Shown: positions 7,765-64,000 of the stretch, piece after piece
Layout: every line of letters begins with the position of its first letter
Numbering within the stretch: the stretch's first letter is position 1
Assembly: GCF_900110435.1 (NCBI RefSeq)
Contig: NZ_FODT01000018.1
Coordinates: 1-64,000, forward strand
Direction of reading: 5' to 3'
DNA: 64,000 nucleotides
From: Rhodopseudomonas pseudopalustris
GTDB lineage: Bacteria > Pseudomonadota > Alphaproteobacteria > Rhizobiales > Xanthobacteraceae
Notes under the pieces: generated by a model
Told to the model about the DNA's origin: nothing
Database searches by the model: none
The model's input: only the letters and a program-made list of their open reading frames with translations
Position numbers and translations under genes: made by a program

Positions 7765-7774
7765 GACGTCGGAC

Positions 7775-47402: not shown

Positions 47403-47427
47403 TTTCGCGCTTTGGACGAGGCTTCGC

Positions 47428-48036: not shown

Positions 48037-48221
48037 GGGGATGAAAGTTGTGACTAAGACCCGACAGTCCGCCGCGGAGGCAGCAACCAGCCTTGTCTCA
48101 TCGATGAAGCTAGCGCCCGCTTCCTGACAATAAGCTGACGGATGGGAGGGCCGCGTAGTTGAGCACCAAGAATCTGCAATGTGCAGCTTCGCGAATCGCT
48201 TGGAGCGAATCGAACGGCAAT

Positions 48222-48503: not shown

Positions 48504-48786
48504 AAAACACTTCCATTTTCTGAAAAATGTTGGCTCAGGTTCGTGGATGAACTTAGAACCCGACTCATGTCGCCGCGATCAGAAGTTTGCCAGACTTTGC
48601 AGATACTTCGGGGCATGACTGAAATGTTCGGACCTCTTTCGCAAGGTGAAAATCCCTCAAGGCCCGGCCCGTAGAGCCATTTTGGATTCCTTTCAGCCAG
48701 AAGCGCTGCCGTGCGATGCACTCGAAAGGGCGCAAAACGGGTTCGTTCAAACGCTGTCGGATGCCCTGGACCTCGCGATAGTGAGT

Positions 48787-48802
48787 GTATCATATATGAT
48801 AC
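48787..48802. promoter_or_regulatory. Palindromic operator, upstream copy
   Basis: GTATCATATATGATAC is a perfect 16-bp palindrome in AT-rich surroundings, 193 bp before the higB-like start. A near copy lies at 48971-48986. Likely bound by the HigA-type antitoxin (inference). Confidence 0.6.
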
Positions 48803-48870
48803 CTTCATCCAATGGATGCCCCTAAGCCGATCCCAGGGTCTTTTGGCCCATCCGAGGTCGAAGTGTCCGA
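48796..48870 (+). pseudogene. Frameshifted remnant of a second toxin 5' end
   Basis: The sequence after the upstream palindrome parallels that of the toxin start 184 bp downstream. ATG inside the palindrome reads M-I-P-S-S-N against M-I-H-S-S-D, then a small shift and a stop; in another frame DAPKPIPGSF matches QDPKPIPLRF. Similarity fades after about 75 bp. It looks like a partial tandem duplication of operator plus toxin N-terminus that has decayed. Confidence 0.5.
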
Positions 48871-48970
48871 CAACTTAGAACTCGCCAATTTGTCTATCGG
48901 ACGGATACAGATTGCCGAGTTAGCGCAGGATAAATATCCTATCATCTCTATTTCTTTCCTTGCCTTCTGT

Positions 48971-48986
48971 GTATCTTATATGATAC
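48971..48986. promoter_or_regulatory. Palindromic operator at the toxin start
   Basis: GTATCTTATATGATAC, one base different from the perfect palindrome at 48787. It contains the toxin ATG (48980-48982), so a bound repressor would cover the translation start region. The following ATTCATC is also shared with the upstream copy. Confidence 0.6.
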
Positions 48987-49345
48987 ATTCATCAGACAAA
49001 CAGGATCCGAAACCGATCCCCTTGCGGTTCTGGCGATCATCGTCCGGGCAGGAGCCGGTGCGCGACTGGCTGAACGAGCTTTCCCGCGAGGATCAGAAGG
49101 TGGTTGGTCGCGATATCGCCAGGGTGCAGTTCGGCTGGCCGGTCGGGTTGCCGGTGTGCCGGCCCTTGGGCGGCGGGCTGTGGGAGGTTCGCTCGACCCT
49201 GAAAAGCCGCCGCGAGGCCAGGGTCCTGTTCGGGTTCTATGAGGGGATGCTGATTGCCCTGCATGCCTTCATCAAGAAGACGCAGAAGACGCCGGCGGAT
49301 GATCTGGAATTGGCGAAGCAGCGAATGAAAGAGGTGCGGTCATGA
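48980..49345 (+). CDS. higB: HigB-type toxin (phage Gp49-like / RelE superfamily)
   Basis: 121 residues from ATG 48980. PIPLRFWRSSSGQEPVRDWL, then DIARVQFGWPVGLPVCRPLG and GLWEVRSTLKSRREARVLFGF are the Gp49/HigB fold signature; HAFIKKTQKTP closes it with the conserved basic residues of ribosome-dependent mRNA interferases. The start has no ribosome-binding site and lies in the operator; TTG 49021 is an alternative, but the preserved M-I-x-S-S in the upstream remnant supports 48980. The toxin is first and overlaps its antitoxin by 4 bp, the usual higBA order. Confidence 0.85.
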   Translation: MIHSSDKQDPKPIPLRFWRSSSGQEPVRDWLNELSREDQKVVGRDIARVQFGWPVGLPVCRPLGGGLWEVRSTLKSRREARVLFGFYEGMLIALHAFIKKTQKTPADDLELAKQRMKEVRS

Positions 49346-49629
49346 CGAAGAAGAACAAGCATGTCGGCTCCAGCTTCGAAAGTTGGCTCGACGAGACCGA
49401 CCTTCGCGAGGAAGTAACGGTTTCCGCGATCAAATCCGTGATCGCGATGCAGCTTTCCGCCGAAATGAAGAAGCAGAAACTCACCAAGAAGCGGATGGCC
49501 GAACTGATGAAGACCAGCCGCGCCCAGCTCGACCGGCTGCTTGATCCCGACAACGGCAACGCCACCATCGAAAGCCTTCAGCGCGCGGCGCATATCGTCG
49601 GACGAGAGCTCCGGATGGAGTTGGTGTAG
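49342..49629 (+). CDS. higA: HigA-type antitoxin, XRE helix-turn-helix
   Basis: 95 residues. The helix-turn-helix is MQLSAEMKKQKLTKKRMAEL followed by MKTSRAQLDRLLDPDNGNAT and IESLQRAAHIVGRELRMEL, as in HigA-type antitoxins paired with Gp49 toxins. It neutralises the toxin and probably represses the operon through the palindromes upstream. ATG 49342 overlaps the toxin stop. Confidence 0.88.
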   Translation: MTKKNKHVGSSFESWLDETDLREEVTVSAIKSVIAMQLSAEMKKQKLTKKRMAELMKTSRAQLDRLLDPDNGNATIESLQRAAHIVGRELRMELV

Positions 49630-49675
49630 CCCCTTACGCCGGCGGAGTTGACGAAGGCTGCTTTCCAAATGGGCG

Positions 49676-50095
49676 CTAACGGCCAGTCATGCCTGGAAAG
49701 AAAACGCTGTCGAACATTTCGACGTCTCGCTCAAGCTGTTCTCGGAAGAGAATGGTGGCTTCATCAGGTGATTTAATTTTTGAAAGGAATGATATGCAAG
49801 CGCGAAGCGCGCTCGTTGCATTGTCCCGGCGAGCAGGACGGAATAGCTTCCTGCTAGGGCTCGGACGTTTTTCGATCCAAATAATCGCCTCGTCTTTGAG
49901 GGTTACCGGCACGAAAGGCGACGTAACATCCTCAAGAATGTCGGCTGCCAATTCGCGGCTTCGGCCTGCACTGTCTTTCAGGCTGTCCGGGGTACCCTCG
50001 TATGCTTCCCGCATCTCTCCGCCCAAGACGGAGAGCTCGTAGTAAGATTCCTCGACCGCGTGGCCCAGTATGTCTTCGGTGAAGCGAAGCTTCAT
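49676..50095 (-). CDS. Hypothetical protein near higBA
   Basis: 139 residues from ATG 50095; GTG 50107 in frame is an alternative. A mixed alpha/beta soluble protein: MKLRFTEDILGHAVEESYYELSVLG, then DILEDVTSPFVPVTLKDEAIIWIEKR and a helical C-terminus (SALRACISFLSKIKSPDEATILFREQLERD). No signal peptide or membrane segment. Family not recognised. It converges on higA with 46 bp between stops. Confidence 0.6.
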   Translation of the reverse strand: MKLRFTEDILGHAVEESYYELSVLGGEMREAYEGTPDSLKDSAGRSRELAADILEDVTSPFVPVTLKDEAIIWIEKRPSPSRKLFRPARRDNATSALRACISFLSKIKSPDEATILFREQLERDVEMFDSVFFPGMTGR

Positions 50096-50107
50096 TGGAG
50101 CGCTCAC

Positions 50108-50522
50108 TGAATTGGTCGGCTAAACGTCCATACTTTGCCGCAAAACAACTGCTGGTATGCGGCAAATTTTGGGCTCTATTGGCAACCTTCGGATTGCCAG
50201 TTGCCGATACTCCAGGAAGACAAAGATCAAATCAGATTGAGAAGAAGCTCGGGATTGATGAACACCAATCGCCGCCCGACATAACCGTCTTTTCGACCCT
50301 GCCCACCGGAGCGCAACCACCAAGAGTTCTCAGCGCTAGGTTTCAACGGCTATCCCTGGGAAGGAGCGAAGGAACTGAACAATCTTTGTTACAAAGTCAT
50401 AGCGCGTTCGGCGCGTCGCCCGACCTTTCGCATGGTATCTTCATATGCCACAGGTGAATTCCGTGAAAAGAGAACCCTCCCAAACGGACGGTAGAGTCGA
50501 GTATCTAAAGATGAGACGAAAG
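50108..50522. other. Intergenic region without a recognisable gene
   Basis: 415 bp of mid-GC sequence. Short open frames on both strands show no coding character or start signals. It should hold the promoter of the gene at 50095 and the end of the sbcDC transcript; no terminator hairpin with a T-run was seen. Confidence 0.4.
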
Positions 50523-50825
50523 CTAGATGTCCTGGAATAGATCAAGCGTAAGTGTGTCCCGGACCCTGCAAAGGCCTTCGCCACGGTGCAGACAGGGATG
50601 CTTTATTCGCGTCATGCCCGGCTCTCCTTCAAAGTGAGCCCAACCGCCATTCGGCATGTGCACACTCAGGACCCTTGCGCCGCATTTCGGGCATGGATGT
50701 TTGTAGCTATTGCGCTTCGGCCCTTGGTTGCGCTCGTAATAAGCCCAATTCTCGCAGACGAACGTAACGCGACCTGATTCAAGCCTGCGGGGATGCGCAC
50801 GTCGCTTGACCCAAGGATCAGCCAT
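50523..50825 (-). CDS. Small zinc-ribbon-like protein downstream of sbcC
   Basis: 100 residues. HPCPKCGARVLSVHMPNGGWAHFEG, followed by IKHPCLHRGEGL, gives a CxxC plus C/H set spaced as in a zinc ribbon, and the N-terminus has VTFVCENWAYYERN. No family recognised. Its ATG directly abuts the sbcC stop, so it should be made with SbcC and SbcD, possibly as an accessory factor binding nucleic acid. That partnership is inference from position. Confidence 0.65.
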   Translation of the reverse strand: MADPWVKRRAHPRRLESGRVTFVCENWAYYERNQGPKRNSYKHPCPKCGARVLSVHMPNGGWAHFEGEPGMTRIKHPCLHRGEGLCRVRDTLTLDLFQDI

Positions 50826-53800
50826 CTAGATCGTCCCTCTGGCTTCAACGTGGCTCCCTTGCATATCTTTTCGAACATAGAAACCGTTTGGAATGACTTC
50901 TTGCACGAAAGGCACATGCGAGATTAACCCAACCGATCTCTGCTGGCTCACGAGATTTGTAAGCACCTGCAACACTTGATCGAGTGTGCCCGAGTCGTCG
51001 GTATCCAAACTACCAAATCCTTCGTCGATGAAAATGGTGTCCAAACGGATTTTGCCACTGACACTTTCCACAACATCAGAGAGTCCGAGCGCCAGGGCGA
51101 GGGCGGCAATGAAGGTCTCGCCTCCCGAGAGGGTGGCGGGCGAACGCGCTTTCCCGGTGTAAACGTCAGAGACCTTTATCCCAAGGCCTCGCCGGGAACG
51201 ACCACTACTGGCCTCGATCTCGCGTTCAAGTGAGTACCGGCCACCTGTCATTGGGCCGAGACGCTGGTTCGCCGCCTTGAGGACCTGATCGAACATTGCG
51301 CCAATGGCAAAGGTCTCAAGGTCAAGTCGTTGGGTGTTCTCCGCATTGAAAAGCGCTGCGAGTTGACGCAGCGCCGCAGTGTCTGCCTCGATCTGGTCGA
51401 GCCGGGACAGGGTGTCGGTGATGTCTTGCTGAAGATCACGGAGTTGCTTCAACCGGGCCTCGGTCTGCGCTCTGGCATTCGTTGCGTTCCTTAGTGCCGT
51501 GTCGGCCTGTTGGACAGCTTCCTCAAGGGGTTGGAGAGCCGGACGAATGGCATCGGCAATAGCTTCCTTCGTTGTTCTCTGATGGCCGCGCGCAAGGATC
51601 GTCCTCTGGGAATAATCATCGAACGTCCTAGCATCAGAATCTATTGTCGCGATCAACGGTTTGTAGGAAAGATAGACAGCTTGGCTTAATCCGGTTTCGG
51701 TCAGCCGTCGTTCGAAGGCCGTGCGTGCCCTGTCATGCCGGAGCGTCGCTTCGGTCAACGTAGCGTTGGCAGCCTCGGCGTCCTTTGCTGCACCAAGCGC
51801 GGCGTCGCGTGTGTTGTTTGCGCTCTTTTCGGCGCCTTCCAGGGCGGACTTTCGCGCTTCCTGAGCGCGGCGGTTTTCCGCGATAGCGCAATCGAGCGTC
51901 GTCGGCTGCCGATAGGCCTCGGGAATTGCGACAAGCGCCTGCTCCAATTTGCTTTGCGCAATGGCGTCTGTCCTATCGGCCGCTTCCAGCTCAAGTCGAA
52001 GCTGCTCACGCGTTTGCTCGGCACCGGCCATGTCGCCGTCGAGTGCTGTCAAACGCGCCTCAGCAGCGGGAAAATCGATTTCTGGGCCTAGCTCCTCGAT
52101 TTTCTGAGTGAGGGCAGTTTTATCCGCACGAAGATCGGCGAGAGAGCGGTCGGGCTTCTTCAGCTCCGACAGCCTGTCTTCGCGTTCCTTCTGGGTTGCT
52201 TCCGCCGAGGCGAGACTACGGCCACTTTCCTGCTCGGCCTTCTGCGCCGTTTCCCAAAGCAGCTTTGCATCGCGGAATTCCTTGTCGAGGCCAACATGCT
52301 CGATTTGACCTGTTGCAGGCGCAGGATGTTCGTGCGAGCCGCACACCGGACAAGCGTCGCCGGGCAAGAGCTTGGCCGCGAGGTGAAGGGCCTGTGCGGT
52401 GGCTAGGTTTGCTTCCGTCTGGTCAAAACGCGCCCGGGCAGCGCTGGCTTTTTGAGCGCACTCTGCATGGATGGTCCGCGCCCTAGTTGTTGCCGAGCGC
52501 GCGGACTCTTGCATCTTTTCCGCGTCTTCAAAGTCTTTGGCGAGTTTTTGTGCAGCGTCCAAGATTGCACCCTCTGCTAACAGACGGCGCCGTTCCGTTT
52601 CCTTTCCTCTTGCTAGCGTTAGCTTCGTGCTTTCCGAGCTTTTCGTCTCGCCAAGCCGGATACAGCGCCGTGCGGCGACATTGTACGCTTCCTTCGCCTT
52701 TGGAAGCGCAGCGCTCGCAGCACGTGCTGCAATTTCGAGACCCGTCGCTTCGGTAAGCATTCCACGATAGCGGCCGAGCGCCTCGCCAGTTTGACGCAGC
52801 GCGGTTGTTTCATCAGATCTGGATCGCTCATTCTCGAGCGCGACTGCGGCGCGTTGTGCAATTTCAGCAGCGTCCACCGACTTTCCTGATGCTGCGTCTC
52901 GTTTCTTTACCGCGTCGGCCAGCTCTGTCTCAGCCTCGCAGAAATGGTTTTCAACGTCGGTAACAAGCTGGGCCCGGCGGGCGTATTCGATGCGCTGGCT
53001 TAGGGCCGCCATCGCTTGCTCACGCTGGAGAAGTCCAGCCAGTTCCACGTCAGCCTTCTCCGCCGCCTGAAACAGGGCATCGAGTTGGCGAGAGGCATCG
53101 AGCTTGGTCCGTTCATCGCCCAACTGTTTCGACGCGTCCGTCTCCCGCTGCATATCCCCGGTGTGAGTGAGTTGCATCGTCGCAATCCCCTCGACCAGTG
53201 CATCAGGGCTTTCAAACCCGTCGACCTTGAGGCGCGCTGTACAGACCTCGCGTTCCTGGCGAACCTGCCGCTCGGCCTCGGCGGCATCCTCCTTCATTTT
53301 TGCGGCTAGACGCCGATAAATCGAAACGTCGAACAGCTCACGCAGGATGCCTAACCGCGCATCTGTCTTGGCGGCGAGAAAGGTCTCGAACCTTCCCTGC
53401 GGCAACAGGACGATCTGGCGGAATTGTTCTGGCCCGTAGCCGAGGAGATCGACAATCGCGTCGCGAACCGCGCCGGTCTTCTTTTCCGCAATAATCTTTC
53501 CCCAGTGGTCCTCGGTAATCTGATCGACGGGGAGACCCGTGGCGTCGAAAAGCCACGCTTCATGCGCGTCCTTTGTCTCCCCCGATCCACGCAGCTTGGG
53601 CCGAACCTGCTCAGGCCGGCGGCGGATGACATAGCGCTTGTTGCCAATCTCAAAGATGAACTCCACCTCAGTCGGCAAGGCAGGGTCGGCATGATCCGAT
53701 CGAAGCGATGCCGCCTCTTGCTCAACCTTCGCAGCCTCTCCAAACAGCGCGAAGGTCATCGCACAAAATACCGTCGACTTTCCTGCGCCCGTCTGCCCGT

Positions 53801-53900
53801 AGATGCCGAAGAGACCCGAGGCAATCGCCTGTCGAAAGTCGATGACCTCCCGAGCAGCGAAAGGTCCGAAGGCCTGTAGCGTTAACCTGATCGGCCTCAT
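50826..53900 (-). CDS. sbcC: SbcC-type exonuclease ATPase (Rad50-like)
   Basis: 1024 residues, close to E. coli SbcC. Walker A is GIYGQTGAGKSTVF near residue 33, with long coiled coils on either side of a zinc hook CPVC (about residue 516). The signature motif SPATLSGGETFIAALALALGLSD and Walker B DTIFIDEGFGSLDTD lie near the C-terminus. With SbcD it forms a DNA-end-processing nuclease that opens hairpins and protein-blocked ends. It overlaps sbcD by 4 bp (sbcD is first) and is followed directly by the zinc protein. Base composition is visibly less GC-rich than the left part of the window, suggesting an acquired copy. Confidence 0.93.
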   Translation of the reverse strand: MRPIRLTLQAFGPFAAREVIDFRQAIASGLFGIYGQTGAGKSTVFCAMTFALFGEAAKVEQEAASLRSDHADPALPTEVEFIFEIGNKRYVIRRRPEQVRPKLRGSGETKDAHEAWLFDATGLPVDQITEDHWGKIIAEKKTGAVRDAIVDLLGYGPEQFRQIVLLPQGRFETFLAAKTDARLGILRELFDVSIYRRLAAKMKEDAAEAERQVRQEREVCTARLKVDGFESPDALVEGIATMQLTHTGDMQRETDASKQLGDERTKLDASRQLDALFQAAEKADVELAGLLQREQAMAALSQRIEYARRAQLVTDVENHFCEAETELADAVKKRDAASGKSVDAAEIAQRAAVALENERSRSDETTALRQTGEALGRYRGMLTEATGLEIAARAASAALPKAKEAYNVAARRCIRLGETKSSESTKLTLARGKETERRRLLAEGAILDAAQKLAKDFEDAEKMQESARSATTRARTIHAECAQKASAARARFDQTEANLATAQALHLAAKLLPGDACPVCGSHEHPAPATGQIEHVGLDKEFRDAKLLWETAQKAEQESGRSLASAEATQKEREDRLSELKKPDRSLADLRADKTALTQKIEELGPEIDFPAAEARLTALDGDMAGAEQTREQLRLELEAADRTDAIAQSKLEQALVAIPEAYRQPTTLDCAIAENRRAQEARKSALEGAEKSANNTRDAALGAAKDAEAANATLTEATLRHDRARTAFERRLTETGLSQAVYLSYKPLIATIDSDARTFDDYSQRTILARGHQRTTKEAIADAIRPALQPLEEAVQQADTALRNATNARAQTEARLKQLRDLQQDITDTLSRLDQIEADTAALRQLAALFNAENTQRLDLETFAIGAMFDQVLKAANQRLGPMTGGRYSLEREIEASSGRSRRGLGIKVSDVYTGKARSPATLSGGETFIAALALALGLSDVVESVSGKIRLDTIFIDEGFGSLDTDDSGTLDQVLQVLTNLVSQQRSVGLISHVPFVQEVIPNGFYVRKDMQGSHVEARGTI

Positions 53901-55039
53901 GCCCGGTCCTCCAACTTTTGCAGATCGTCGAAAGCTGAATCGACGAGCGCCAATTCTGCGTCGGCAAGCCGCTCATTTCGTACGTGTTCAAGAAAATCGC
54001 CGACTACCTGAATCGGGTCGTTGATCCTGGCAAGCGGGGGGAGGGTGGCATTGACGGTCGAAATCTGTTCGTCACGCGCATAAATCAGTCCGCAGGCGTT
54101 GGAGAAGACCTCGCGAAGCCTTTTCATGGGGTCGATCAGCGGCTTCTCATCGGTAAGGATCACTTTGATGAAGTCTGACGATGGCTCAGCGAGCACCAAG
54201 TCGGCCAACTTTCCACGGACGATGCGTATCGTGCGGGGCGGTACGAAGGGGATCGTGCTGATGGTCGTGGTGCCATCGGGCCAAAGATCCACGAGGGCCA
54301 TCGATTTTGGCTCACCCGCCTCGTCGAACCCGAAAGCCAAGGGGGCTCCAGCGTAGCGAATGTGCTCCGTCCTTATTGATTGCGGCCTGTGAAGATGGCC
54401 TAGCGCGACGTAGTGCGCGCCATCAAAAACCTCGGGGCGCACGGTCTCAAGTCCGCCAACCCGGGCAAGCGGTCGTTCACCCTCACTGCCCTTCGCGCCC
54501 GCGACAAAGGCGTGGGCGACAACGACCCAGCGCGCACCGTCCGGCAAATGGCGCCGAGCCGACGTAATCTGCGCGGTCACCACATCTTCTGGCGTATTGA
54601 TCGATTCATTCCCAAAGCACTCCCGGGCTGCATACTCATGGGAGAACGGCAACGCGGAAATAGCAACGGGACCGTGGCTGTCATTGACGATGAGGGGTGC
54701 TTCCTCAACATTGAGCGGACCCCGGATCAGGGCCCGGTTAGTATCCGTCATGATCGCCATTGAGCCGATCCGGTCCCCCGAATCATGATTGCCCGCGATC
54801 ATCACCACGGCCGCGTTCGTCTGGTTCGCCACTTGCGTCAGAAAAGTATTGAATTGCCGCACGGCGCTGGCGGGTGGCACCGCCCGGTCGAAGATGTCAC
54901 CGGCGATAACGAGAACATCCACACGTTGCAGGATGATGCATTCAAGGATTTGGTCGAGGATCGCACGATGATCGTCCTCAAGCGACATGTTGTTGAAGGC
55001 GCGCCCAAGATGCAGGTCCGCAGTGTGAAGAATTCTCAT
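53897..55039 (-). CDS. sbcD: SbcD-type exonuclease (Mre11-like)
   Basis: 380 residues. Metallophosphoesterase motifs in order: RILHTADLHLGRAF, VLVIAGDIFDRAVPP, IAGNHDSGDRI, VAHAFVAGA and ALGHLHRPQSI. The C-terminal part should dock onto SbcC. Its nuclease site processes DNA ends under control of the SbcC ATPase. First gene of sbcD-sbcC-zinc protein, divergent from the WYL regulator with 76 bp between starts. Confidence 0.94.
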   Translation of the reverse strand: MRILHTADLHLGRAFNNMSLEDDHRAILDQILECIILQRVDVLVIAGDIFDRAVPPASAVRQFNTFLTQVANQTNAAVVMIAGNHDSGDRIGSMAIMTDTNRALIRGPLNVEEAPLIVNDSHGPVAISALPFSHEYAARECFGNESINTPEDVVTAQITSARRHLPDGARWVVVAHAFVAGAKGSEGERPLARVGGLETVRPEVFDGAHYVALGHLHRPQSIRTEHIRYAGAPLAFGFDEAGEPKSMALVDLWPDGTTTISTIPFVPPRTIRIVRGKLADLVLAEPSSDFIKVILTDEKPLIDPMKRLREVFSNACGLIYARDEQISTVNATLPPLARINDPIQVVGDFLEHVRNERLADAELALVDSAFDDLQKLEDRA

Positions 55040-55049
55040 TGGGGCAATC

Positions 55050-55073
55050 CGTATAGTTTTTGAACGTATAATT
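55050..55073. promoter_or_regulatory. Direct repeats in the sbcD-WYL divergent promoter
   Basis: CGTATAGTT (55050) and CGTATAATT (55065) are direct repeats 15 bp apart, the second containing a TATAAT hexamer. They sit in the 76-bp gap between divergent sbcD and the WYL gene, a natural place for the regulator to bind and control both operons (inference). Confidence 0.45.
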
Positions 55074-55115
55074 TGTAGATGGACAAGCCGGGGGGAGTCA
55101 AGCTAGATTCCGCTT

Positions 55116-55940
55116 ATGGCGTTTGATGACCTGAAGCACGCTCAACGCGAGCGACTAATCTTTCTTGATCGGTGTCTTACATGGCGAGGCATGGCCAATC
55201 GCCGGGACCTAATCGCACGCTTCGGAATTTCATCCGCGCAGGCAGCGCTCGATTTCCGTCTCTACCTTGAATGTTCGGGTAAGACGCCGCCGATCTATGA
55301 CTCGGTCCGAAAGACCTATCTTGCCGCCGAAGCTCACAAGCCTCTGGCACCGTCGAGTTTGACCGAGGCCTTCGAGACGGTACTCAATCCTGAAGACGAT
55401 GCTACAGCAATCTTGCCACCGCCTCTGCGGCGGGCGGACCCCTCAGTTATTGCCAGCCTTTATCAGGCCATGCGTGCCAAACAGGCCATCCATGTCCGGT
55501 ACACATCAATGACGTCCGGTGCCGACGGTGGCCAATGGATTGCTCCAACGCACTTCACCTCAGACGGGGAAAGCGTTCATGTCCGGGCATTCAGCTACAA
55601 GCATCGGCAGTACCGTGATTACCTCCCCATCCGGGTCGGTGCCGACAGCACGTTTGAAACCCGTCCGTTGTCCGAGCCGCTGCCATGGGATGAGGATTGG
55701 AATACCCGTGCGCGCGTTTGGCTCCGGCCAAAATCCGGTCTTACTCGCGAGCAGGCTTCAGCAGTACGTCGCGAGTACGGCTTCGAAGGGCAACTGCTCT
55801 GCGTGGAGACGCGAAAGGCGCTCGAATATTACCTGGACCGTCGCTGGGGACTAAACCAAAATGGCGCGAGGCTGGAACGTGTGAAGACTGATTATGACAA
55901 ATTACCCAGCGATTGTTCGCGTGCGGCTGTTATAGAGTAG
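55116..55940 (+). CDS. WYL-domain transcriptional regulator (BrxR/CapW-like)
   Basis: 274 residues. N-terminal winged helix (about 8-60: AQRERLIFLDRCLTWRGMANR, RDLIARFGISSAQAALDFRLY), then a WYL domain (about 115-185: AIHVRYTSM, GQWIAPTHFTSDGESVHVRAF and SYKHRQYRDYLPIRV) and a C-terminal WCX-like part. This layout matches the BrxR/CapW repressors that sit at the head of phage-defence operons and respond to nucleic acid ligands. Here it is 8 bp upstream of the propeller protein gene and divergent from sbcDC, so it could control both sides. Ligand unknown. Confidence 0.85.
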   Translation: MAFDDLKHAQRERLIFLDRCLTWRGMANRRDLIARFGISSAQAALDFRLYLECSGKTPPIYDSVRKTYLAAEAHKPLAPSSLTEAFETVLNPEDDATAILPPPLRRADPSVIASLYQAMRAKQAIHVRYTSMTSGADGGQWIAPTHFTSDGESVHVRAFSYKHRQYRDYLPIRVGADSTFETRPLSEPLPWDEDWNTRARVWLRPKSGLTREQASAVRREYGFEGQLLCVETRKALEYYLDRRWGLNQNGARLERVKTDYDKLPSDCSRAAVIE

Positions 55941-55948
55941 GTTTAGCC

Positions 55949-56905
55949 ATGGGCCTCAGAAATTGGCTGTTCGGCGGTAGCAAAGCGCAAGTTCCTAAAG
56001 CGGCCGATACCGAGGCCCCCAATGGAAAATCAGACGACAGTATTTTCGGCGATATCATCGACATTCCGTCGCGAAATTTCATCGGACTTTCCGCCAAATC
56101 GCCGAACCGCCGCTTCTCGATAGCTTGGTGTGACGGTGGCCCAAACCAGTCGCGTGCGGGGCGCTATATACTGCTCGACCGTGGAAAGATCGTTGCCGAA
56201 GGCAAAATGGCGCGCCCCAATGACGGAAAGGTCACGGACAATGGTGTGTTCATTCTCAACGATTGGGGCGACAGCGAAAGCTTGAGTGGCGTGTTCGCAG
56301 CCTTCCGCCCGGATGGTTCGACGATCGTCGTGCGCAAATTCAGCGCCAACCTGTACAACAACGGCTTGTCGGCCGATGGAACCCGCGCCGTTTGCCAAAC
56401 GGCAAACGCCCCAGGCGGTGACGGAAACCTGCTAACGGCCTTTGATCTTATCCACGGCAATGAACTGGGAGCATGGCGACCGGAATCCGGCTGGGCGCGA
56501 TCGTACGAATTCTCGGAGGACGGCAATACAATCCGTCTCATCTATCCCGAGCGAGGCGGCTTCCTCTATTCAGTTGACGGCAAGTTCATCGATCGAATGA
56601 AGTGGCTTGCCGCGGGTCTCGCTTGTGGTGACCTGCGAACAGTGGAGACCCTGCTCGCCGAAACGGACAATGCGCCTCCATACCCCCTCGTCCAGCAGTT
56701 GCTCGAAGCGCTTAAAGTGGCACTTTCTGCCCCGGTCAATAACTCTCCAAATGCGCGCGCACGCATTTTAAGATTTCGTGGGATTTGCTTTGAAGCGATC
56801 GCGGAATCCAGAGCTGCGCTGGAGGCCTATGATGAAGCCTTGGCGCTCGACCCCAAAATCGGTGTGAAGCGCAAAGCCGATCGACTTCGCAAAGTTGTGC
56901 TTTAG
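55949..56905 (+). CDS. Beta-propeller-like protein with C-terminal TPR-like helix pair
   Basis: 318 residues from ATG 55949, which begins MGLRNWLFGGSKAQVPKA; the frame's upstream part overlaps the WYL gene end. Residues about 35-230 hold repeated strand blocks with -DG- turns (FRPDGSTIVVRKFSA, LSADGTRAVCQTA, FSEDGNTIRLIYPE, YSVDGKFIDRMKWL), like WD40/PD40 blades. Residues about 280-312 form a TPR-type helix (RGICFEAIAESRAALEAYDEA, then LALDPKIG). No signal peptide, no catalytic motif. It likely serves as a protein-interaction part of the same module as the SNF2 helicase 195 bp downstream. Family not recognised. Confidence 0.65.
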   Translation: MGLRNWLFGGSKAQVPKAADTEAPNGKSDDSIFGDIIDIPSRNFIGLSAKSPNRRFSIAWCDGGPNQSRAGRYILLDRGKIVAEGKMARPNDGKVTDNGVFILNDWGDSESLSGVFAAFRPDGSTIVVRKFSANLYNNGLSADGTRAVCQTANAPGGDGNLLTAFDLIHGNELGAWRPESGWARSYEFSEDGNTIRLIYPERGGFLYSVDGKFIDRMKWLAAGLACGDLRTVETLLAETDNAPPYPLVQQLLEALKVALSAPVNNSPNARARILRFRGICFEAIAESRAALEAYDEALALDPKIGVKRKADRLRKVVL

Positions 56906-57100
56906 GCGATCTCAAATTGCCATTCTTCTTCCGTCGTCCTATTCGCGCGGGAGAAAGGGACGGGAGGGCCGATGAGGACGGCGGTTTGTCTAGGCGGCCT
57001 AACAATAGTGCTTACCAACAGCCGAATTTATAGGTTCTTGCGGGCTGGCGTGTGTAGATGCAAAGTACTGCAATTGGTTAGCTGATAATGCGGGGCGTCT

Positions 57101-60100
57101 GTGCCAGCAACGTCGAAATTTCAGTCGATCCTTTTGACCCGTGTCGGCCGCCCGGAAGACTACGGCATTTACCGCGCGGGCCTCGAATGGGATTTGACCG
57201 AGCCGATCGTTATCGACAGCGAGGAGGATGTCCGGTCGGCACCGCGTTGGCGAGAGCATCTTCAGCCGTACCATCATCAGGTGACAAACCTGATGACCTT
57301 CTGCCGCAGGCTGCCGGTCACATTGCTGGCGGATGATGTCGGTCTCGGCAAGACGATCAGTGCGGGGCTGATTGTCAGCGAACTGGCGGCACGCGCGCGC
57401 GTAAGCAAGGTGCTGGTCGTCTGCCCGAAATTGCTCGGCCCGCAGTGGAAGGAGGAGCTCGAAACCAAATTCGGCATTCCGGGGATTGTGGCGACCGGAA
57501 GGGAATTGCTCACGGCCAACCATGATGAACTCGGCGCGGTGATCACCACTTACAATTCGGCGCGGCTGTATCTGGAACAGCTGCCTGAAGACCGCTTCGA
57601 CATGTTGATCCTGGATGAAGCCCACAAGCTTCGAAACCTGCATGGCGTTCCCAATCCGCCCCAGGTGGCCAAGAAATTTCACAAGGCCCTGCAAGAGCGG
57701 CGGTTCAAGTTCGTCCTGATGCTGACGGCCACGCCGATCCAGAACCGTCTCTGGGATCTCTACTCGTTGGTCGATCTCCTGACCGTTGCGCGCGGCCACG
57801 AGAACCCGTTCGGCAGCGCCGGAATGTTCGCCCGGCGTTTCATTGCCGATGAAAGGGATCAGGCGCGGCAGCTCAAGGCGGATGCGCGGGAAGAGTTTCG
57901 ATCAATCGTCTATGGTTACATGTCGCGGGTTCGCCGCGGCGATGCACGCCTCGCTTTCCCAACCCGTGTCGTGCGGATGCACCCACTGCCTCCCACACCG
58001 GCGGAGCTGGAGCTAATCGAGGTCATACGCGAGCCGATCAAGAAAATGAATCGGCTCACGCAGATTGGCATTCTGCAAGCCCTGGTGAGCAGTCCCGATG
58101 CCCTTCTGGCGCAGCTCACGAACATGGCCCGGAGAGGGACGGCACCGCCCGAACTTGCCCAAGCCGTCAAGGCTATCGTGACGACTATGCCGACAAGCGC
58201 CAAGCTGACCGGCCTTGGCAAGCTCATCGAAAACTTCAAACAACAGAATCCTGAAAGCTGGCGTTTGGTCGTATTTACGACGCGAAGAGAGACGCAGACG
58301 ACGATCCAGAACTTCCTTGAAGGCTACGGATTGAAGGTCGGCATCATCAACGGCGATTCAGGCCAGAAGAACCAGGAAACGATCAAAGCCTTCCGGCAGA
58401 ACCCGCCCGGCTATCGCGTCATCGTTTCGACCGAAGCCGGATCGGAAGGCGTCAACCTGCAGGTCGCCAATGTCCTGGTGAACTTCGATCTGCCCTGGAA
58501 TCCGATGATCGTCGAGCAGCGCATCGGCCGCATTCAGCGCCTGGCTTCCGAACACGAGAAAGTCAGCATCTTCAATGTCATGCTGAGCGGCACCTTTGAA
58601 CACTACATCGTCGGGCGCTTGATGGAAAAGCTGCAGATGGCGGCTCACGCAATCGGGGACATTGAGGCGCTCCTTCAGGGAACGGACATCGACAATGACG
58701 GCGAGGGGGACAGCGCCGACAGCTTTGAGGATCACATCCTCACGCTTGTACTCGCCGCACTTGCCAAGAAAGACGTTGAGCGGGACATGGCGCTCGCCCT
58801 GCAAAGCATCGAGGATGCCAAGCGCGAGTTGGAGCGCGAGGAGCAGAACATCAATAGTCTGCTCGGCGGCATGGATGAAGCCGGGTACGTCGGGCCGCGA
58901 ACCCCGAAGCTGCCGCCGCCCGTCCGTTCGATGGACGCAAAGGAGTTCACGCTGTCGGCTTTCGGGTTGCTGGGCGCCACTGTCGAGGAGGAAAAGCCGG
59001 GACAGTACCTCGCAAGGGGCGGGGACATCCGCGAACGTTTCCGCTTCGACAATCACGCGGAGGCGCAGGGCCCCGGCGTCATTCTCTACGACCAGGAGGC
59101 CCCGGCTTTCCGTCGCCTGGTCAAGCGCGTGATCGCCTCGGGCATGCACGGTGTCTCCGATGCCGACGCCGCGGCCGGCAGGGAGGCCAAGGAGCTGACG
59201 GAGGAGTGGATCAAGGCATTCGGCGGGGAGCCGCAATCGGCGAAGGCGACGACAGTCCGCAGCTTCTACAAAGGGAAAGCCCTGCTTCGCGTTCGCGCCA
59301 CAGTCGCGCATGACAGCTACGAGCGTCTTGTCGATGTGGACTGCGGAGGTGAAGACTACGCCGAGCATCCCGCAGCAAATGGGTTAGAGCCGATCGGCAA
59401 GGTGGTCCGCGACCCGGCAACCATCGGGCTAAGCCGGGACCGCCTGATCGCCGCTGCCGAAAAGGATGACGCAGTCGAAGAGTTCTGCCGTTTTTATGAG
59501 GAACGACGGGAGATTGAAGTCGGCGCGGCGGGCGACGACGCCAGAAAGAAAAAGAAGCTCGAAGACGAGTTCACGCCGCGCCTCGATATCTCCCTGGTCG
59601 GACTGGAGGGAGCGGCCTCCCGCGACCTTGTGATGCTCGCGAAGTTTGGATTCCCGGCAGGGGGATCATACGAGGCCGAAATCGTCGTGCGCCCGCATGA
59701 GCGGAGGGTTGTGGAGGCCCCACCGTCCGAACTGTGCTCCAAGACAGGGCTGGCCGTTCCCTCATCCTGTCTTGACCGCTGTGAAGCGACGGGAGCGACG
59801 GCCCTGCGTCATCTGCTTGAGGTGTCCGAGGTCAGCAGGCGCAAGGCGCTGCCCGAGTTCATGGCGACGTGCGCCTACAGCGGCAAGCGCGTGCTGCAGG
59901 ATGAACTTCAGACCTCCGATGTCACGGGCAAGCAGGTCGCGGCTGCGCTCATGAAAACCTCGGCAATGAGCGGCAAGCGCGCCGAGCCCGACCAGTTCGG
60001 AAAGTGCCCCTTCACCGATGCCGAAGTCCTGAAATCGGAGTTGGCGACAAGCCAGCTTTCCGGAAAGGCCTACCGGAATGACGAAGAGGCGCGCTCCGAC

Positions 60101-60805
60101 GTCTCGGGAAAGACCGGACACCGGAGCGAATTCATCACCTGCCACGAAACACGGCAGACGCTCGCCGCCGACGAGGCGGAGACGTGCGAGCTGACGGGGT
60201 TCAAGGTACGGCCCGGCGTCCTGGTCACATGCGAGGTAACCGGAAAGCGCGTCCTCCCGGGCGTCATTGGAACCTGTGCTGCAACCGGAAAGCGGGCATT
60301 AAACAGCATGCTGGTGAATAGCAGTCTTTCACAAGCGTCCGTCCTGAAATCCGAGGCGTTGAAGTCCATCAGCGGCAACTACTGTCTGCCGTCCGAAGCG
60401 CAAACCTGCTTCTGGAGCGGGCAGCGGTCACATCCCGAGGACATTCGGTCCTGCGCGCTCACGGGGCTCCCCATACACGTCGAATTCGCCACCTCATCGG
60501 AGGGGCCAGCCCGGCTTCAGACACTCGTCGATTTGCTTGACGGCATCAGGCGGAATGCCGACCAAAACGAGGTGTGGCCGACGCTTGCTGAAAAGGTCAC
60601 GGCGGAGCTGAAGAACGGAAAGTGCCGGGTTGAAGCCGCAATGCTATCGCCTTCCAAAAAGCACCTTGCTGCCTGCGCAGAATCGAAAACTATGCTCGGA
60701 CTTCGCGTCCATCAGATCGGCGCTGTGTACGATATCGCAGACAGCGTCCTTGTCGGCCATGTCGCCGAGGGGAAAAGAAACAAGGGGCATTGGGAGGCGA
60801 GGTAG
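57101..60805 (+). CDS. SNF2-family helicase with 17 C-terminal 15-residue Cys/Ser repeats
   Basis: 1234 residues from GTG 57101; an ATG at 57088 is out of frame. Superfamily 2 SNF2/RapA-like motor: motif I DDVGLGKTISAG (about 77), motif II D172-E-A-H in LILDEAHKLRN, motif III LMLTATPIQNR, motifs V/VI STEAGSEGVNLQ and EQRIGRIQRLA. A charged middle region (about 500-870) has no recognised domain. Residues 879-1132 then divide into 17 units of 15 residues, each (C/S)xx(T/S)G(K)xxLxxxxxT; ten units start with Cys and seven with Ser, and one unit is 14 long. This may be a zinc-binding or solenoid array. The protein lacks the partner genes of DISARM or HELR-type systems, so its system is unassigned. 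It lies downstream of the WYL and propeller genes. Confidence 0.88.
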   Translation: MPATSKFQSILLTRVGRPEDYGIYRAGLEWDLTEPIVIDSEEDVRSAPRWREHLQPYHHQVTNLMTFCRRLPVTLLADDVGLGKTISAGLIVSELAARARVSKVLVVCPKLLGPQWKEELETKFGIPGIVATGRELLTANHDELGAVITTYNSARLYLEQLPEDRFDMLILDEAHKLRNLHGVPNPPQVAKKFHKALQERRFKFVLMLTATPIQNRLWDLYSLVDLLTVARGHENPFGSAGMFARRFIADERDQARQLKADAREEFRSIVYGYMSRVRRGDARLAFPTRVVRMHPLPPTPAELELIEVIREPIKKMNRLTQIGILQALVSSPDALLAQLTNMARRGTAPPELAQAVKAIVTTMPTSAKLTGLGKLIENFKQQNPESWRLVVFTTRRETQTTIQNFLEGYGLKVGIINGDSGQKNQETIKAFRQNPPGYRVIVSTEAGSEGVNLQVANVLVNFDLPWNPMIVEQRIGRIQRLASEHEKVSIFNVMLSGTFEHYIVGRLMEKLQMAAHAIGDIEALLQGTDIDNDGEGDSADSFEDHILTLVLAALAKKDVERDMALALQSIEDAKRELEREEQNINSLLGGMDEAGYVGPRTPKLPPPVRSMDAKEFTLSAFGLLGATVEEEKPGQYLARGGDIRERFRFDNHAEAQGPGVILYDQEAPAFRRLVKRVIASGMHGVSDADAAAGREAKELTEEWIKAFGGEPQSAKATTVRSFYKGKALLRVRATVAHDSYERLVDVDCGGEDYAEHPAANGLEPIGKVVRDPATIGLSRDRLIAAAEKDDAVEEFCRFYEERREIEVGAAGDDARKKKKLEDEFTPRLDISLVGLEGAASRDLVMLAKFGFPAGGSYEAEIVVRPHERRVVEAPPSELCSKTGLAVPSSCLDRCEATGATALRHLLEVSEVSRRKALPEFMATCAYSGKRVLQDELQTSDVTGKQVAAALMKTSAMSGKRAEPDQFGKCPFTDAEVLKSELATSQLSGKAYRNDEEARSDVSGKTGHRSEFITCHETRQTLAADEAETCELTGFKVRPGVLVTCEVTGKRVLPGVIGTCAATGKRALNSMLVNSSLSQASVLKSEALKSISGNYCLPSEAQTCFWSGQRSHPEDIRSCALTGLPIHVEFATSSEGPARLQTLVDLLDGIRRNADQNEVWPTLAEKVTAELKNGKCRVEAAMLSPSKKHLAACAESKTMLGLRVHQIGAVYDIADSVLVGHVAEGKRNKGHWEAR

Positions 60806-60833
60806 CCGGTGAGGGCAAGCCCCGTCGACGTCG

Positions 60834-60878
60834 CTCATAACCTGAAGGTCATAGGTTCAAATCCTATCCCCGCAACCA
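60834..60878 (+). pseudogene. 3' half of an initiator tRNA-fMet gene (probable att site)
   Basis: CTCATAACCTGAAGGTCATAG, then GTTCAAATCCTATCCCCGCAACCA, equals the anticodon loop (CAT), variable loop, T-arm and 3' end of a bacterial initiator tRNA. The 5' half expected before it (CGCGGGG...) is absent; the sequence there is the end of the SNF2 gene plus 28 bp. A truncated tRNA 3' end is the classic attachment-site scar of a tyrosine-recombinase element. (The two quoted parts overlap by one base.). Confidence 0.8.
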
Positions 60879-60904
60879 AACTTTCTGAATGATTACAATG
60901 AATT

Positions 60905-60927
60905 AACCCGCCTCTGGCGGGTTTTTT
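60905..60927 (+). terminator. Rho-independent terminator after the tRNA fragment
   Basis: AACCCGCC-TCT-GGCGGGTT followed by TTTT. It lies 27 bp past the tRNA-fMet 3' end, as expected for a tRNA gene terminator carried along with the attachment site. It also isolates the SNF2 operon from the SIR2-HerA pair. Confidence 0.85.
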
Positions 60928-60936
60928 CATGCATTG

Positions 60937-61030
60937 ACGTCTCTTACAATCGGTTACGTAGCCTTCCAATCCATTCCCATTGTTTTTCAATGTGTTGCTG
61001 GTCGTCTTACATTCGGTTGCACTAACGTAC
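60937..61030. repeat. Imperfect direct repeats beside the att site
   Basis: ACGTCTCTTACAATCGGTTACGTA (60937-60960) and TCGTCTTACATTCGGTTGC..ACTAACGTAC (61002-61030) share CGTCT(CT)TACA-TCGGTT and AACGTA/TACGTA ends. Such pairs close to a tRNA-derived att core are how arm-type integrase sites look. The remainder of 60928-61228 holds no recognisable gene. Confidence 0.5.
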
Positions 61031-61228
61031 AAAATGCTCCACGGCACAAAATTGGCACATGGACCGCGCTCGAAACTGTCCCTATCGATTTGAAAAAATG
61101 AGCGATTATTTCAGCCTCGGGGAATTCGGGGCGGGATAATGGTGGATCGCGTGAACCGGCCCCACTAAAGCAGTGGCGATTCCGATAGCGAGATGCAACC
61201 CTCGGTTTAAAGTTCCTACGAGGGCGGC

Positions 61229-62434
61229 ATGAGTCTTAGCGTTCACAATCCGGACCAGTACATGGCATCCCTGCGCACGATCATCGCGCAGGGGCGGAAG
61301 AGAATTGGGCTTCTCATCGGAGCCGGCGGTCCCGCGGGAATGGCCAAGGAAGATGGAACCTATCCGCTTATACCCGCTGTGGCGGGGCTGACGGAGTTGG
61401 TCCTCAAGGCCATCGAGCACGATTATGCTCCGCTGATCAAATTACTGAAGGCAGAGCTGCCCCAGCACGATATTGAAACCATCCTTTCGCGCGTGCGCTC
61501 CCTCGCAAAAGTTATCGGAGCAAGCAAAGTCCACGATCTGGACGGAAAGGGTTTCGATACGTGCGGCGAGCGGATTTGCACAGCGATTGGCAAGGTCGTG
61601 GACGCGCGTCTTCCCAAAGGACCGTCCGCGTATGCGGACCTCGTAAGCTGGGTTACAGGTACTTCGCGTGACTACCCCATCGAAATTTTTACAACGAATT
61701 ACGACCTCTTGCTCGAAGAGGCTTTTGAGGCCGTTCGTGCACCTTACTTCGACGGCTTTACTGGAGGTCGTGAACCGTTCTTTGATCCCGTTTCGATTGC
61801 CAACAATGACTTGCCTGCCCGCTGGACCCGAATCTGGAAACTCCACGGCTCTTTAGGTTGGTGCAAAGGCGAGCGAGAGGAGGTCGTTCGCTCGGGCAAG
61901 AGCAGCGCGACGCATTTGGTGTTTCCTGAACACCTCAAGTACGACCAGACGCAAAAGGCACCTTACAGCGCGCTTCTGGATCGATTGAAAGCCTTTCTTA
62001 CCACTGATGACACTTTGTTGATCTCGATCGGATTTTCTTTTGCTGATGCCCATGTAGCAGCGCGCATCGACGAGGGTCTCGCCTCGAACCCATCCGCAAG
62101 TGTGTTCGCTTTCCAGTTCAAAAGCCTGGCCGAAGAGAAAGCGGCCTGCGACCTCGCTAGCAGACTCCCAAATTTCAGCGTCTACGCACGAGACAAAGCC
62201 GTTATGAATGGCATCCCCGGCCCGTGGGTGTTACCGGCAGATTTACCGAGTAAGGATTGGGGGCCTATCCGTGCATCCTATTGGGGGCAGCCGAACCCAA
62301 GTGATCCCCAGCAATTCTTGCTCGGCGCAATTGAACCGTTATGCAAATTCTTCGCCGCTTCTCGATCCACACAGGTTTTTGGGGCGGCACCTACCGGTCT
62401 GGCGGTGCCAACTGCTCCCGGAGCTGCGGTATGA
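61229..62434 (+). CDS. SIR2-domain protein of SIR2-HerA defence pair
   Basis: 401 residues; GAGG sits about 5 bp before the ATG. SIR2-like fold: GLLIGAGGPAG (residues 27-37) for NAD, F-TTN157-YD159 in EIFTTNYDLLLEEAF, and H206 in KLHGSLGW, the pairing of Asn and His typical of NAD-hydrolysing defence SIR2 domains. ISIGFSFADAHV and a C-terminal alpha-helical part follow. In SIR2-HerA systems the complex depletes NAD or cuts DNA on phage infection. It overlaps the HerA gene by 4 bp (ATGA). Confidence 0.9.
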   Translation: MSLSVHNPDQYMASLRTIIAQGRKRIGLLIGAGGPAGMAKEDGTYPLIPAVAGLTELVLKAIEHDYAPLIKLLKAELPQHDIETILSRVRSLAKVIGASKVHDLDGKGFDTCGERICTAIGKVVDARLPKGPSAYADLVSWVTGTSRDYPIEIFTTNYDLLLEEAFEAVRAPYFDGFTGGREPFFDPVSIANNDLPARWTRIWKLHGSLGWCKGEREEVVRSGKSSATHLVFPEHLKYDQTQKAPYSALLDRLKAFLTTDDTLLISIGFSFADAHVAARIDEGLASNPSASVFAFQFKSLAEEKAACDLASRLPNFSVYARDKAVMNGIPGPWVLPADLPSKDWGPIRASYWGQPNPSDPQQFLLGAIEPLCKFFAASRSTQVFGAAPTGLAVPTAPGAAV

Positions 62435-64000
62435 ATGCGCCTACGCTACTCGGCTATGTGGGGGCTGTTTCCGGATCCTTGGTTAGTGTGAAGCAATTCC
62501 AAGGAATCGCATCCGGGATCGCAATTATCGGCGGCCGAAGCTACCGCGTGGGTCAAGTAGGCAGTTTTGTAAGAATTCCACAGGGGTACCACGATCTCTA
62601 CGGGATCATTTCCGACGTGGGCGCGACCGCAACTCCTGAAGTGCTGAGAGACGCGAACCAACGCGGTGAGCGCTGGATGTCCATCCAGCTTGTGGGTGAG
62701 ATCGTTGAAGCCTCTTTTGAGCGTGGCATTAGTCAATACCCAGGGATAAACGACGAGGTCCACATCGTCACTGAAGACGACCTCGCAAAAATTTACGGAA
62801 CCGCTGATGGCGGACAGGTTACGATCGGTAGGCTTGCGGCTGCTGAGAGTATTCCTGTCCGCATCGATCTTGAAAAACTGATTACGAGGCATTCCGCAGT
62901 TCTTGGTTCCACCGGCTCGGGAAAATCCACGACAGTTGCGAGCTTGCTTAGGTCGATCTCAGGTGGTCACACGGGTGAAACAGCATTTCCTTCCGCACGC
63001 ATTCTCTTGCTCGATGTCCACGGCGAGTATGGCAAGGCTCTCGCGAATGTTTCGAAGGTACTTCGGGTCAATCCGCAGGACGGCAGCGAACCGCTCTACG
63101 TACCCTATTGGGCGATGGACATTCTGGAACTCGTCGAGTTTCTGATGGGACGCCTTGAAGAAAAGGCGCTCTCTCCGATTCTCGACAAAATTCTCGAAGA
63201 CAAGCTGGCAGCCCATAAGAAGGCGAATTTTCTGGGCGTCGATCCGACGTCGCTAACGTCTGACAGCCCCATTCCCTTTAGTCTAAAAAAGATATGGTAC
63301 GAGCTAATCGATCCCGAGATCAAAACTTGGACAGATCAACAGCGAACGCAATCTGCCCGGATCGCCAATGGCGATCCGGAAACGCTAACACCGCCTCAAT
63401 ACCCATTGCCTGGTGCCGGAAGTTCTAGTCCCTTTATGAACAACGCAGGGGTGCTGGGAATTCGAAGGCCACTGACACTTCTTCGATCGCGCCTCCTAGA
63501 TCGCCAATACGACTTCATGCTGCACCCGGGAGATTGGGAACCAAATCTTCTTGGTGCTGTGAAGAAAGACCTCCCTGCGCTACTTGAGAACTGGATCGGG
63601 CACGACAAGCCGATCACAATTCTAGACCTCTCAGGCATCCCAAGCATTGTAATGACCCGCCTTGTTGGCGGTATCTTAAATATAATCTATCAGGCGCTCT
63701 TTTGGGGCAGAGAAATGCCGGATGGTGGTCGCCTTCGGCCACAGTTGATTGTAATGGAAGAGGCTCACCGCTATCTCGGCAAGGACGGACATAGTCCGGC
63801 TCGAGAAATGGTTCAGAGGATCGTGAAAGAAGGTCGGAAGTTCGGCGTTGGAGCGATGGTCGTTAGCCAACGACCGTCGGAGGTGGATGATACCATTCTA
63901 TCTCAGTGTGGTACCTTCTTTGCTTTGCGATTATCCAACAGTACCGATCGATCCCGCGTTCAATCCTCGCTGCCTGACAATTTGGCTGGGGTCGTTGATA
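62431..64000 (+). CDS. HerA/DUF87-type ATPase of SIR2-HerA pair (partial)
   Basis: 523 codons are visible and the frame is open to the window's edge. N-terminal beta-barrel (about 1-130: GYVGAVSGSLVSV, VGQVGSFVRIPQG), Walker A G159-S-T-G-S-G-K-S-T, ILLLDVHGEYGKAL, and Walker B with the catalytic glutamate in IVMEEAHRYLG (E443/E444), followed by VKEGRKFGVGAMVVSQRP. It forms a hexameric DNA-translocase-like ring on which SIR2 subunits sit. ATG 62431 overlaps the SIR2 stop. The last ~50-100 residues are probably missing. Confidence 0.92.
   Translation, partial: MNAPTLLGYVGAVSGSLVSVKQFQGIASGIAIIGGRSYRVGQVGSFVRIPQGYHDLYGIISDVGATATPEVLRDANQRGERWMSIQLVGEIVEASFERGISQYPGINDEVHIVTEDDLAKIYGTADGGQVTIGRLAAAESIPVRIDLEKLITRHSAVLGSTGSGKSTTVASLLRSISGGHTGETAFPSARILLLDVHGEYGKALANVSKVLRVNPQDGSEPLYVPYWAMDILELVEFLMGRLEEKALSPILDKILEDKLAAHKKANFLGVDPTSLTSDSPIPFSLKKIWYELIDPEIKTWTDQQRTQSARIANGDPETLTPPQYPLPGAGSSSPFMNNAGVLGIRRPLTLLRSRLLDRQYDFMLHPGDWEPNLLGAVKKDLPALLENWIGHDKPITILDLSGIPSIVMTRLVGGILNIIYQALFWGREMPDGGRLRPQLIVMEEAHRYLGKDGHSPAREMVQRIVKEGRKFGVGAMVVSQRPSEVDDTILSQCGTFFALRLSNSTDRSRVQSSLPDNLAGVVD

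Follow-up and report, generated by a model that had tools for sequence, protein, structure and literature searches.

A 15-residue Cys/Ser repeat array on a SNF2-type ATPase in a Rhodopseudomonas pseudopalustris defence island, read as a possible zinc-free knuckle solenoid

The stretch of Rhodopseudomonas pseudopalustris DNA analysed here (the window: 64,000 nucleotides, positions 1 to 64,000 of contig NZ_FODT01000018.1) carries, within a defence island, a gene for a SNF2-type ATPase with seventeen tandem units of about 15 residues near its C-terminus, each opening with Cys or Ser. The repeat is real and unnamed, and the array is old and conserved within a protein family that is itself rare. 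Whether the array is a zinc-free solenoid of knuckle-like hairpins, acting as a docking arm on the SNF2 motor, we regard as an even call. The gene and its parts are as follows.

57101-60805, + strand: SNF2-type ATPase with a C-terminal repeat array (1234 amino acids, GTG start)
57314-58543, + strand: two-lobed SNF2/helicase ATPase core (residues 72-481), from Pfam
59735-60496, + strand: array of 17 units (residues 879-1132), sixteen of 15 amino acids and one of 14
59870-60139, + strand: units 4-9, the 90-residue six-unit block repeated by the array at locus L050, from comparison with L050
60383-60454, + strand: C-terminal cap quartet C1095-C1103-H1111-C1118, a candidate metal site, from conservation of C-x7-C-x7-H-x6-C
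60515-60802, + strand: C-terminal alpha+beta domain (about residues 1139-1234), from residues 317-410 of an AlphaFold2 (AF2) model

A Cys/Ser repeat on a SNF2-type motor

Pfam placed SNF2-rel_dom at residues 72-311 (E 6.7e-25) and Helicase_C at residues 376-481 (E 2.9e-17), and the protein has the two RecA lobes and the motifs I, II, III and VI that mark a SNF2-family ATPase (DDVGLGKT at 78, DEAH at 172, TATP at 209 and QRIGRIQR at 473). Among 52 family proteins, GKT is retained in 50, DEAH in 51 and motif VI in 47. Judged by its sequence, the motor that carries the array is a RapA/BrxHII/DrmD-like SNF2 ATPase. In the AF2 model, its C-terminal domain consists of five strands and two helices.

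A preliminary description of this DNA had proposed seventeen units at a fixed 15-residue spacing, one of them a residue short, with ten units opening on Cys and seven on Ser, and a unit-by-unit count agrees in each respect; the start given, 59735, was also correct, whereas the end, 60500, lay 4 bases too far. The first residues of the units are, in order, C C S C S S C S S C C C C S S C C. Spacing is exact from residue 879 through unit 14; unit 15 (SISGNYCLPSEAQT) has 14 residues, and units 16 and 17 come after it. Identity at a lag of 15 residues is 0.232 within the array, compared with a mean of 0.068 and a maximum of 0.124 in 2000 shuffles (z 10), and with 0.061 outside it (residues 1-870); identities at lags of 30, 45, 60, 75 and 90 likewise exceed those of all 2000 shuffles. 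At the DNA level, identity at a lag of 45 is 0.42 (0.33 at third codon positions), versus 0.26 at a lag of 44, which fits the earlier proposal that the repeat is old and constrained at the protein level. Equivalent units of two proteins share a mean identity of 52%, versus 23% for different units within one protein (29 proteins, units 1-14), and the units have therefore been distinct since long ago.

A scan of species genomes yielded 68 loci carrying relatives (denoted by L numbers), many of them in metagenome bins. They span 13 phylum labels and include Alpha-, Beta- and other Proteobacteria, Nitrospirota, Acidobacteriota, Elusimicrobiota, Patescibacteria, Lentisphaerota, Desulfatirhabdium and Planctomycetota. 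Best-segment identity is 49-68% in full-length rows up to L049 and 31-39% in L050, L052, L054, L057 and L059. These last five are also the deepest rows, by midpoint and on long branches, in a quick tree of the part preceding the array (57 rows), on which the 13 labels need 16 changes (minimum 12) and a Planctomycetaceae row, L044, is placed among Nitrospira-type rows. Of 398 Pseudomonadota genomes, two carry the gene, one being the genome of the window; the count is 8 of 392 genomes in L050's phylum (five of them SNF2 proteins, L050 included) and 2 of 286 in that of L016, where both loci were already known. No plasmid matched the array plus C-terminal domain by tblastn at E<=1e-5, and no plasmid place covered 80% of the whole protein, the ten matches listed spanning helicase residues only; phages gave one chance-level match to the array (E 7), and a search of IMG/VR by peptide patterns, which detects close relatives only, returned no relative of the whole protein. 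Open frames of 435-516 amino acids at L109, L110 and L111 form a second planctomycete family, without SNF2 (L109 has no Pfam match); for this family, L156 and L157 have neighbours of like size.

Unit number, which the preliminary description had suggested comparing among homologues, ranges from 13 to about 93. Relative to the window array, L029, L031 and L040 are without four units and six proteins have eight extra; L052 has about 56 units and L050 about 93. These counts exclude L061-L069 (weak or short matches) and L109-L111 (too few units), and broken frames (L038, L046, L051 and others) are represented by their largest open piece. No chain of units came from L039, L045, L047, L058 or L060, and L030 gave one under code 25 but none under the standard code. 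The parser often skips, or ends before, the 14-residue unit, such that its counts of 12, 14 and 16 often stand for 13 or 17. The L050 protein (positions 4899-12293, 2465 residues) has nested periods of 45, 90 and 180 residues, unit identity being 0.21 between adjacent units and increasing to 0.38, 0.55 and 0.71 at distances of three, six and twelve units, and is a good natural record of repeat growth. Residue periods of 118/59 and 60/120 are seen in L153 and L152, respectively. Nitrospira and Hyphomicrobium-type proteins both carry eight-unit insertions, and identities between the copies favour neither a shared nor an independent origin.

A set of 1147 units from 59 arrays has Cys at position 1 in 643 cases and Ser in 471, a figure biased because the units used to train the position-specific scoring matrix all began with C or S. 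Position 4, in chains found with that same matrix, is Ser or Thr in 1110 units (Ser 671, Thr 439) and Cys in 4. C1 pairs with T4 and S1 with S4 (odds ratio 10.9, the units being mutually non-independent). In 32 aligned proteins the consensus for units 1-14 is C C S C S S C S S C C C (C/S) S. Thirteen of these positions vary in no row or in very few, the exceptions being at unit 2 (one row) and unit 6 (two rows), and only unit 13 is mixed (seven Ser rows of 29). Because C or S is nearly constant at each unit position, the Ser units are not random decay.

CxxC is nearly absent: the window array has none, 53 of the 59 arrays lack it, and in any register it occurs only in L021, L036, L050, L057, L059 and L108. 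Single in-register CxxC units are found in L057, L059 and L152, inside the array or at its edge; CxxC-rich stretches precede the array in L152 and L057; and in the non-SNF2 planctomycete proteins L109-L111 a few array-like units run directly into a CxxC...CxxC pair. The CxxC-rich part of L152 had no match below E 1 among PDB sequences.

Predicted fold of the array

AF2 modelled the array alone (residues 874-1138) with a mean predicted local distance difference test score (pLDDT) of 93.3, and in a 411-residue model pLDDT is mostly 93-97 across it. In these models the array is a confident, regular solenoid, not the ordinary globular domain with an accidental period that the preliminary description had weighed. 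Each predicted unit has a strand at positions 7-9, a three-residue helical turn at 10-12, a strand at 13-15 and a C-x-x-T/S-G turn, a layout that fits in part that of a zinc-knuckle hairpin (strand 13-15, turn, strand 7-9). The DSSP pattern has a period of three units over the first seven and becomes less regular thereafter, in agreement with the C-S-S rhythm of units 1-7 and of L050, in which Cys returns at each third unit (91% at lag 3), or about once per 45 residues.

When the array alone was searched with VIA-align, 48 of the 50 matches listed were zinc-finger proteins, as judged by title or general knowledge, and 9y6s and 9xrl were ambiguous. Matches included the FYVE structure 1joc (Z 4.4, 2.2 Å over 45 residues) and 1y02 (Z 2.2, 1.3 Å over 40 residues), and FYVE-type matches fell at model residues 19-63, 64-108 and 109-153, which are three successive three-unit blocks. 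With the whole C-terminus, the top match (Z 7.1) was a designed cystatin-like fold lying on the C-terminal domain and not on the array. The choline-binding repeats of C-LytA were rejected as a likeness (Foldseek E 0.69 only).

The preliminary description knew of no named domain with this period attached to SNF2, and the libraries bear this out: none of the matching Pfam, NCBIfam, PADLOC (best 25 of 48 matches) or PHROG models has its best-scoring stretch in the window array. Nor is this repeat named in the titles and abstract openings listed by searches of the open PMC literature, which mostly leaves out subscription papers. The L050 array has a weak match over 45 residues (E 3.1e-4) to an HNH-endonuclease PHROG, which we take to be a treble-clef family.

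Genomic setting

46744-64000 of the window, continued in L159 1-9017: low-GC defence island behind tRNA-Cys
61229-62434, + strand: SIR2-family defence protein (PADLOC PDLC04094, E 3.9e-182)
62341-63999, + strand: HerA-family ATPase that runs off the window, candidate start (PADLOC PDLC04105, E 3.3e-136)
L014 12694-14202, L017 5865-7388, L029 12500-13987 and 11 other loci: PD-(D/E)XK/RNase_H_2 family, a neighbour of relatives

The window's guanine-plus-cytosine (GC) content is mostly 63-68% before about 48 kb and 54-62% after it, the drop falling just behind tRNA-Cys. The island comprises, in order, a Gp49-like gene, SbcC/SbcD, a WYL gene, a TPR gene, the array helicase, SIR2, HerA, a second WYL gene and, 4-9 kb past the window, genes for a patatin effector, an oligonucleotide cyclase, an E1-E2 protein and a JAB protein, a set that by sequence looks like a type II CBASS. 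No second copy of tRNA-Cys that could mark the island's end was found in the window or the 9 kb beyond, up to the contig end. A small open reading frame behind the Gp49-like gene is a candidate toxin-antitoxin component by position only. Elsewhere in the window (10001-14000), GC dips to 52.9% at 10-12 kb, compared with about 65%, near tRNA-Arg (12611-12687), and this is possibly another small insertion.

The relatives' neighbours match 159 PADLOC models, among them CBASS cyclases, IetA, GajA and OLD, versus 20 for control proteins (E<=1e-10; 97 proteins each, out of 130 neighbours listed and 135 control proteins); models, which are redundant, were counted rather than proteins, and the control, 20 stretches of other genomes, was not species-matched and itself contains Kwa-like genes. 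A conserved operon was considered and rejected: in phmmer searches of the other 68 neighbourhoods with the window's WYL, TPR, SIR2, HerA, SbcC and SbcD proteins, the only matches were HerA-like in L042, SbcC in L012 and SbcD in L012 and L007. The sole recurring neighbour is the PD-(D/E)XK/RNase_H_2 family, present in 14 of 69 neighbourhoods, seven of them from Patescibacteria. Pfam domains were checked in three of its members: L014 has an N-terminal Cas4-like PD-(D/E)XK and a C-terminal RNase_H_2 (YprB-like) domain, L028 is fused to a superfamily 1-type helicase (the L056 protein is equally long), and L008 had no match at E<=0.01. With only these 14 neighbourhoods, two of whose matches are pieces (L010 and L012), a fixed nuclease partner was rejected, and the array protein therefore probably works alone or with host factors. 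The array helicase is adjoined by another SNF2-type protein, about 1000 residues long, at L007 (11000-13954) and L009 (5009-8221), identified by Pfam in L007 and by similarity cluster only in L009.

Readings of the array and comparison with known systems

We read the unit as a zinc knuckle without its metal because of the zinc-finger structural matches and the in-register CxxC of some relatives. Each 15-residue unit would comprise a strand, the C/S-x-x-T/S-G turn, a second strand and a short helical turn; three units (45 residues) would resemble part of a treble-clef or cross-brace finger (FYVE, LIM, RING); and Cys/Ser 1 and Thr/Ser 4 would pack or hydrogen-bond in place of zinc ligands. The preliminary description had offered a zinc-knuckle chain, some of its units having lost metal, or a solenoid; the models favour the solenoid and show the knuckle layout, whereas a mixture of metal-binding and metal-free units finds no CxxC in the window array to support it, and the two proposals are probably the same thing here. 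We further infer that the protein would act against invaders and that the rod would be a stiff, extendable docking arm holding a partner at a set distance from the DNA-moving motor, the partner being a nuclease where one is encoded nearby and, elsewhere, a protein of the invader or the host. The arrays differ from one another by whole units, and the fold would therefore probably tolerate changes in arm length. Net charge is positive but small in 52 of the 59 arrays and negative in six (-38 to +63 per 1000 residues, mean +13), which makes protein docking slightly likelier than DNA binding; binding of DNA through charge was rejected as unsupported by these values. The cap quartet, which a scan of 57 proteins (not counting 11 cut or partial entries) recovered in 50, could at a guess be one real surviving zinc site.

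More tentatively, and with the balance somewhat against it, a zinc-finger unit may have lost its metal, become a self-supporting 15-residue hairpin module and multiplied by nested duplication (15 to 45 to 90 to 180 residues in L050) to give rods with 13 to about 93 units. An unnamed multi-phylum family of SNF2 defence motors would use these rods, and the Cys/Ser code would mark one face of them; this would be a new class of tandem-repeat solenoid.

Several observations weigh against a zinc-free knuckle solenoid on a defence motor. All structural matches of the array have Z below 5, the range in which the tool warns of a mere common arrangement; Foldseek returned no PDB entry at E<=0.001 for either AF2 model; and the 25 viral models that match at E<=0.001 are of mixed kinds, one a phage 'LIM domain containing protein' and others adenovirus fibres and giant-virus proteins. 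AF2 can yield confident yet unreal solenoids from repeat sequences, according to a study that used perfect repeats (PMC11795689), whereas the units of this array are only about 23% alike. When CxxC stretches were compared with the unit profile, positions 1 and 4 being left out of the score, 6 of 25 fit it (P<0.01 against their own shuffles) and the rest did not, a partial fit that is expected if only some stretches are units; those adjoining the array in L109-L111 reached only P 0.02-0.05. The three-unit Cys rhythm is not universal, L107 and L108 favouring four units and L106 eleven. The window's other neighbours are barely shared with the relatives' loci, and the PD-(D/E)XK/RNase_H_2 family is absent from the window and 54 other neighbourhoods. 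Finally, hydrophobic share peaks five residues apart, at positions 3 (0.83), 8 (0.88) and 13 (0.88), and the profile of units 4-9 matches MfpA (E 1.5e-4) and QnrB1 (E 0.03) among PDB sequences, as does that of the whole C-terminus with MfpA (E 0.0036).

These last results favour the main rival to a zinc-free finger, namely that each unit is three pentapeptides and the array a parallel beta-helix with one triangular coil per unit, akin to MfpA and QnrB1. The pentapeptide-repeat fold (PF00805 and kin) is a right-handed quadrilateral beta-helix. The secondary structure predicted by AF2, in which each unit comprises a pair of short strands and a helical turn of three residues, speaks against it for the array; the strict five-residue rule is broken at position 9, which is hydrophobic (0.57), and at position 12, which is often acidic; and no Pfam pentapeptide family matches the window protein at E<=1 or the 93 units of L050 at E<=0.01. 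No pentapeptide entry appears among the 50 matches listed per structure search, an absence that is no proof. Thus, although no well-described repeat domain, which the preliminary description had named as grounds for dropping its proposal, was matched in the libraries, the MfpA resemblance keeps this rival in view. We judge it unlikely, by a shade more than the two alternatives that follow.

Alternatively, the array could still bind metal, with neighbouring Cys units (1-2, 10-13 and 16-17) and the cap quartet holding zinc or an iron-sulfur cluster and Ser units serving as spacers. The near-constancy of Cys per unit position across phyla, the conserved cap, the occurrence of C-x10-C-x3-C, as at units 1-2, in 48 of 68 entries and the zinc-finger look-alikes are all consistent with this. 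However, nearly every unit has at most one Cys at its turn, with Ser or Thr at the partner position; the cap quartet is missing in seven proteins (L050, L052, L054, L057, L059, L105 and L106), mostly deep or planctomycete-type; and the C-S-S repetition of L050 would leave about one Cys per 45 residues. We consider retained metal binding improbable.

It is similarly improbable that the protein has a housekeeping role, as a RapA-like or repair factor whose array tethers it to RNA polymerase or SbcCD: although it matches the RapA NCBIfam model (117 bits, cut-off 576) and SbcC and SbcD genes lie upstream on the opposite strand, the gene is rare and patchy, only one other neighbourhood (L012, of 69) has SbcC- and SbcD-like genes together, and the island and the defence neighbours speak for another role.

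If the zinc-free reading is true, a metal-dependent mini-domain has become a building block that needs no metal and can be stacked into long rods, by a path some of whose steps are still visible as CxxC units in a few deep relatives and C-x-x-T/S units elsewhere. A group of defence-island SNF2 motors would thereby gain an arm of variable length, and protein designers a simple module; the Cys/Ser code and the predicted hairpins make for clear, cheap predictions.

The protein resembles RapA and BrxHII, the helicase of type 3 BREX, in that a SNF2 core is followed by more C-terminal domains. Both are described as a SNF2 core with an inactive REase and a C-terminal alpha+beta domain, and the available text of those descriptions mentions no such repeat (PMC12839542); the PADLOC BrxH model, which has no library cut-off, scores 183 bits with its best stretch at residues 367-576. 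DrmD of DISARM is the top NCBIfam match (207 bits, best stretch 367-582), yet this is far under the curated cut-off of 610 (NF038317), and none of the four window neighbours scanned with PADLOC is a DISARM partner. With LIM, FYVE, PHD and RING fingers the array would share a knuckle-like turn per unit. A treble-clef or cross-brace finger holds each zinc with two pairs of Cys/His ligands of CxxC type; the window array lacks these pairs, forms one continuous many-unit rod in the models and reaches Z 4.4 at most. LIM, for its part, consists of two treble clefs in tandem (PMC4999995). The pentapeptide-repeat proteins MfpA and QnrB1 show sequence resemblance over 48 residues, but differ in Pfam match and in predicted secondary structure. 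The U-box and other treble clefs that retain the finger fold without ligands would be alike in principle: zinc loss is described for U-box, NosL and MerB, and the available part of those descriptions includes no long tandem array (PMC4999995).

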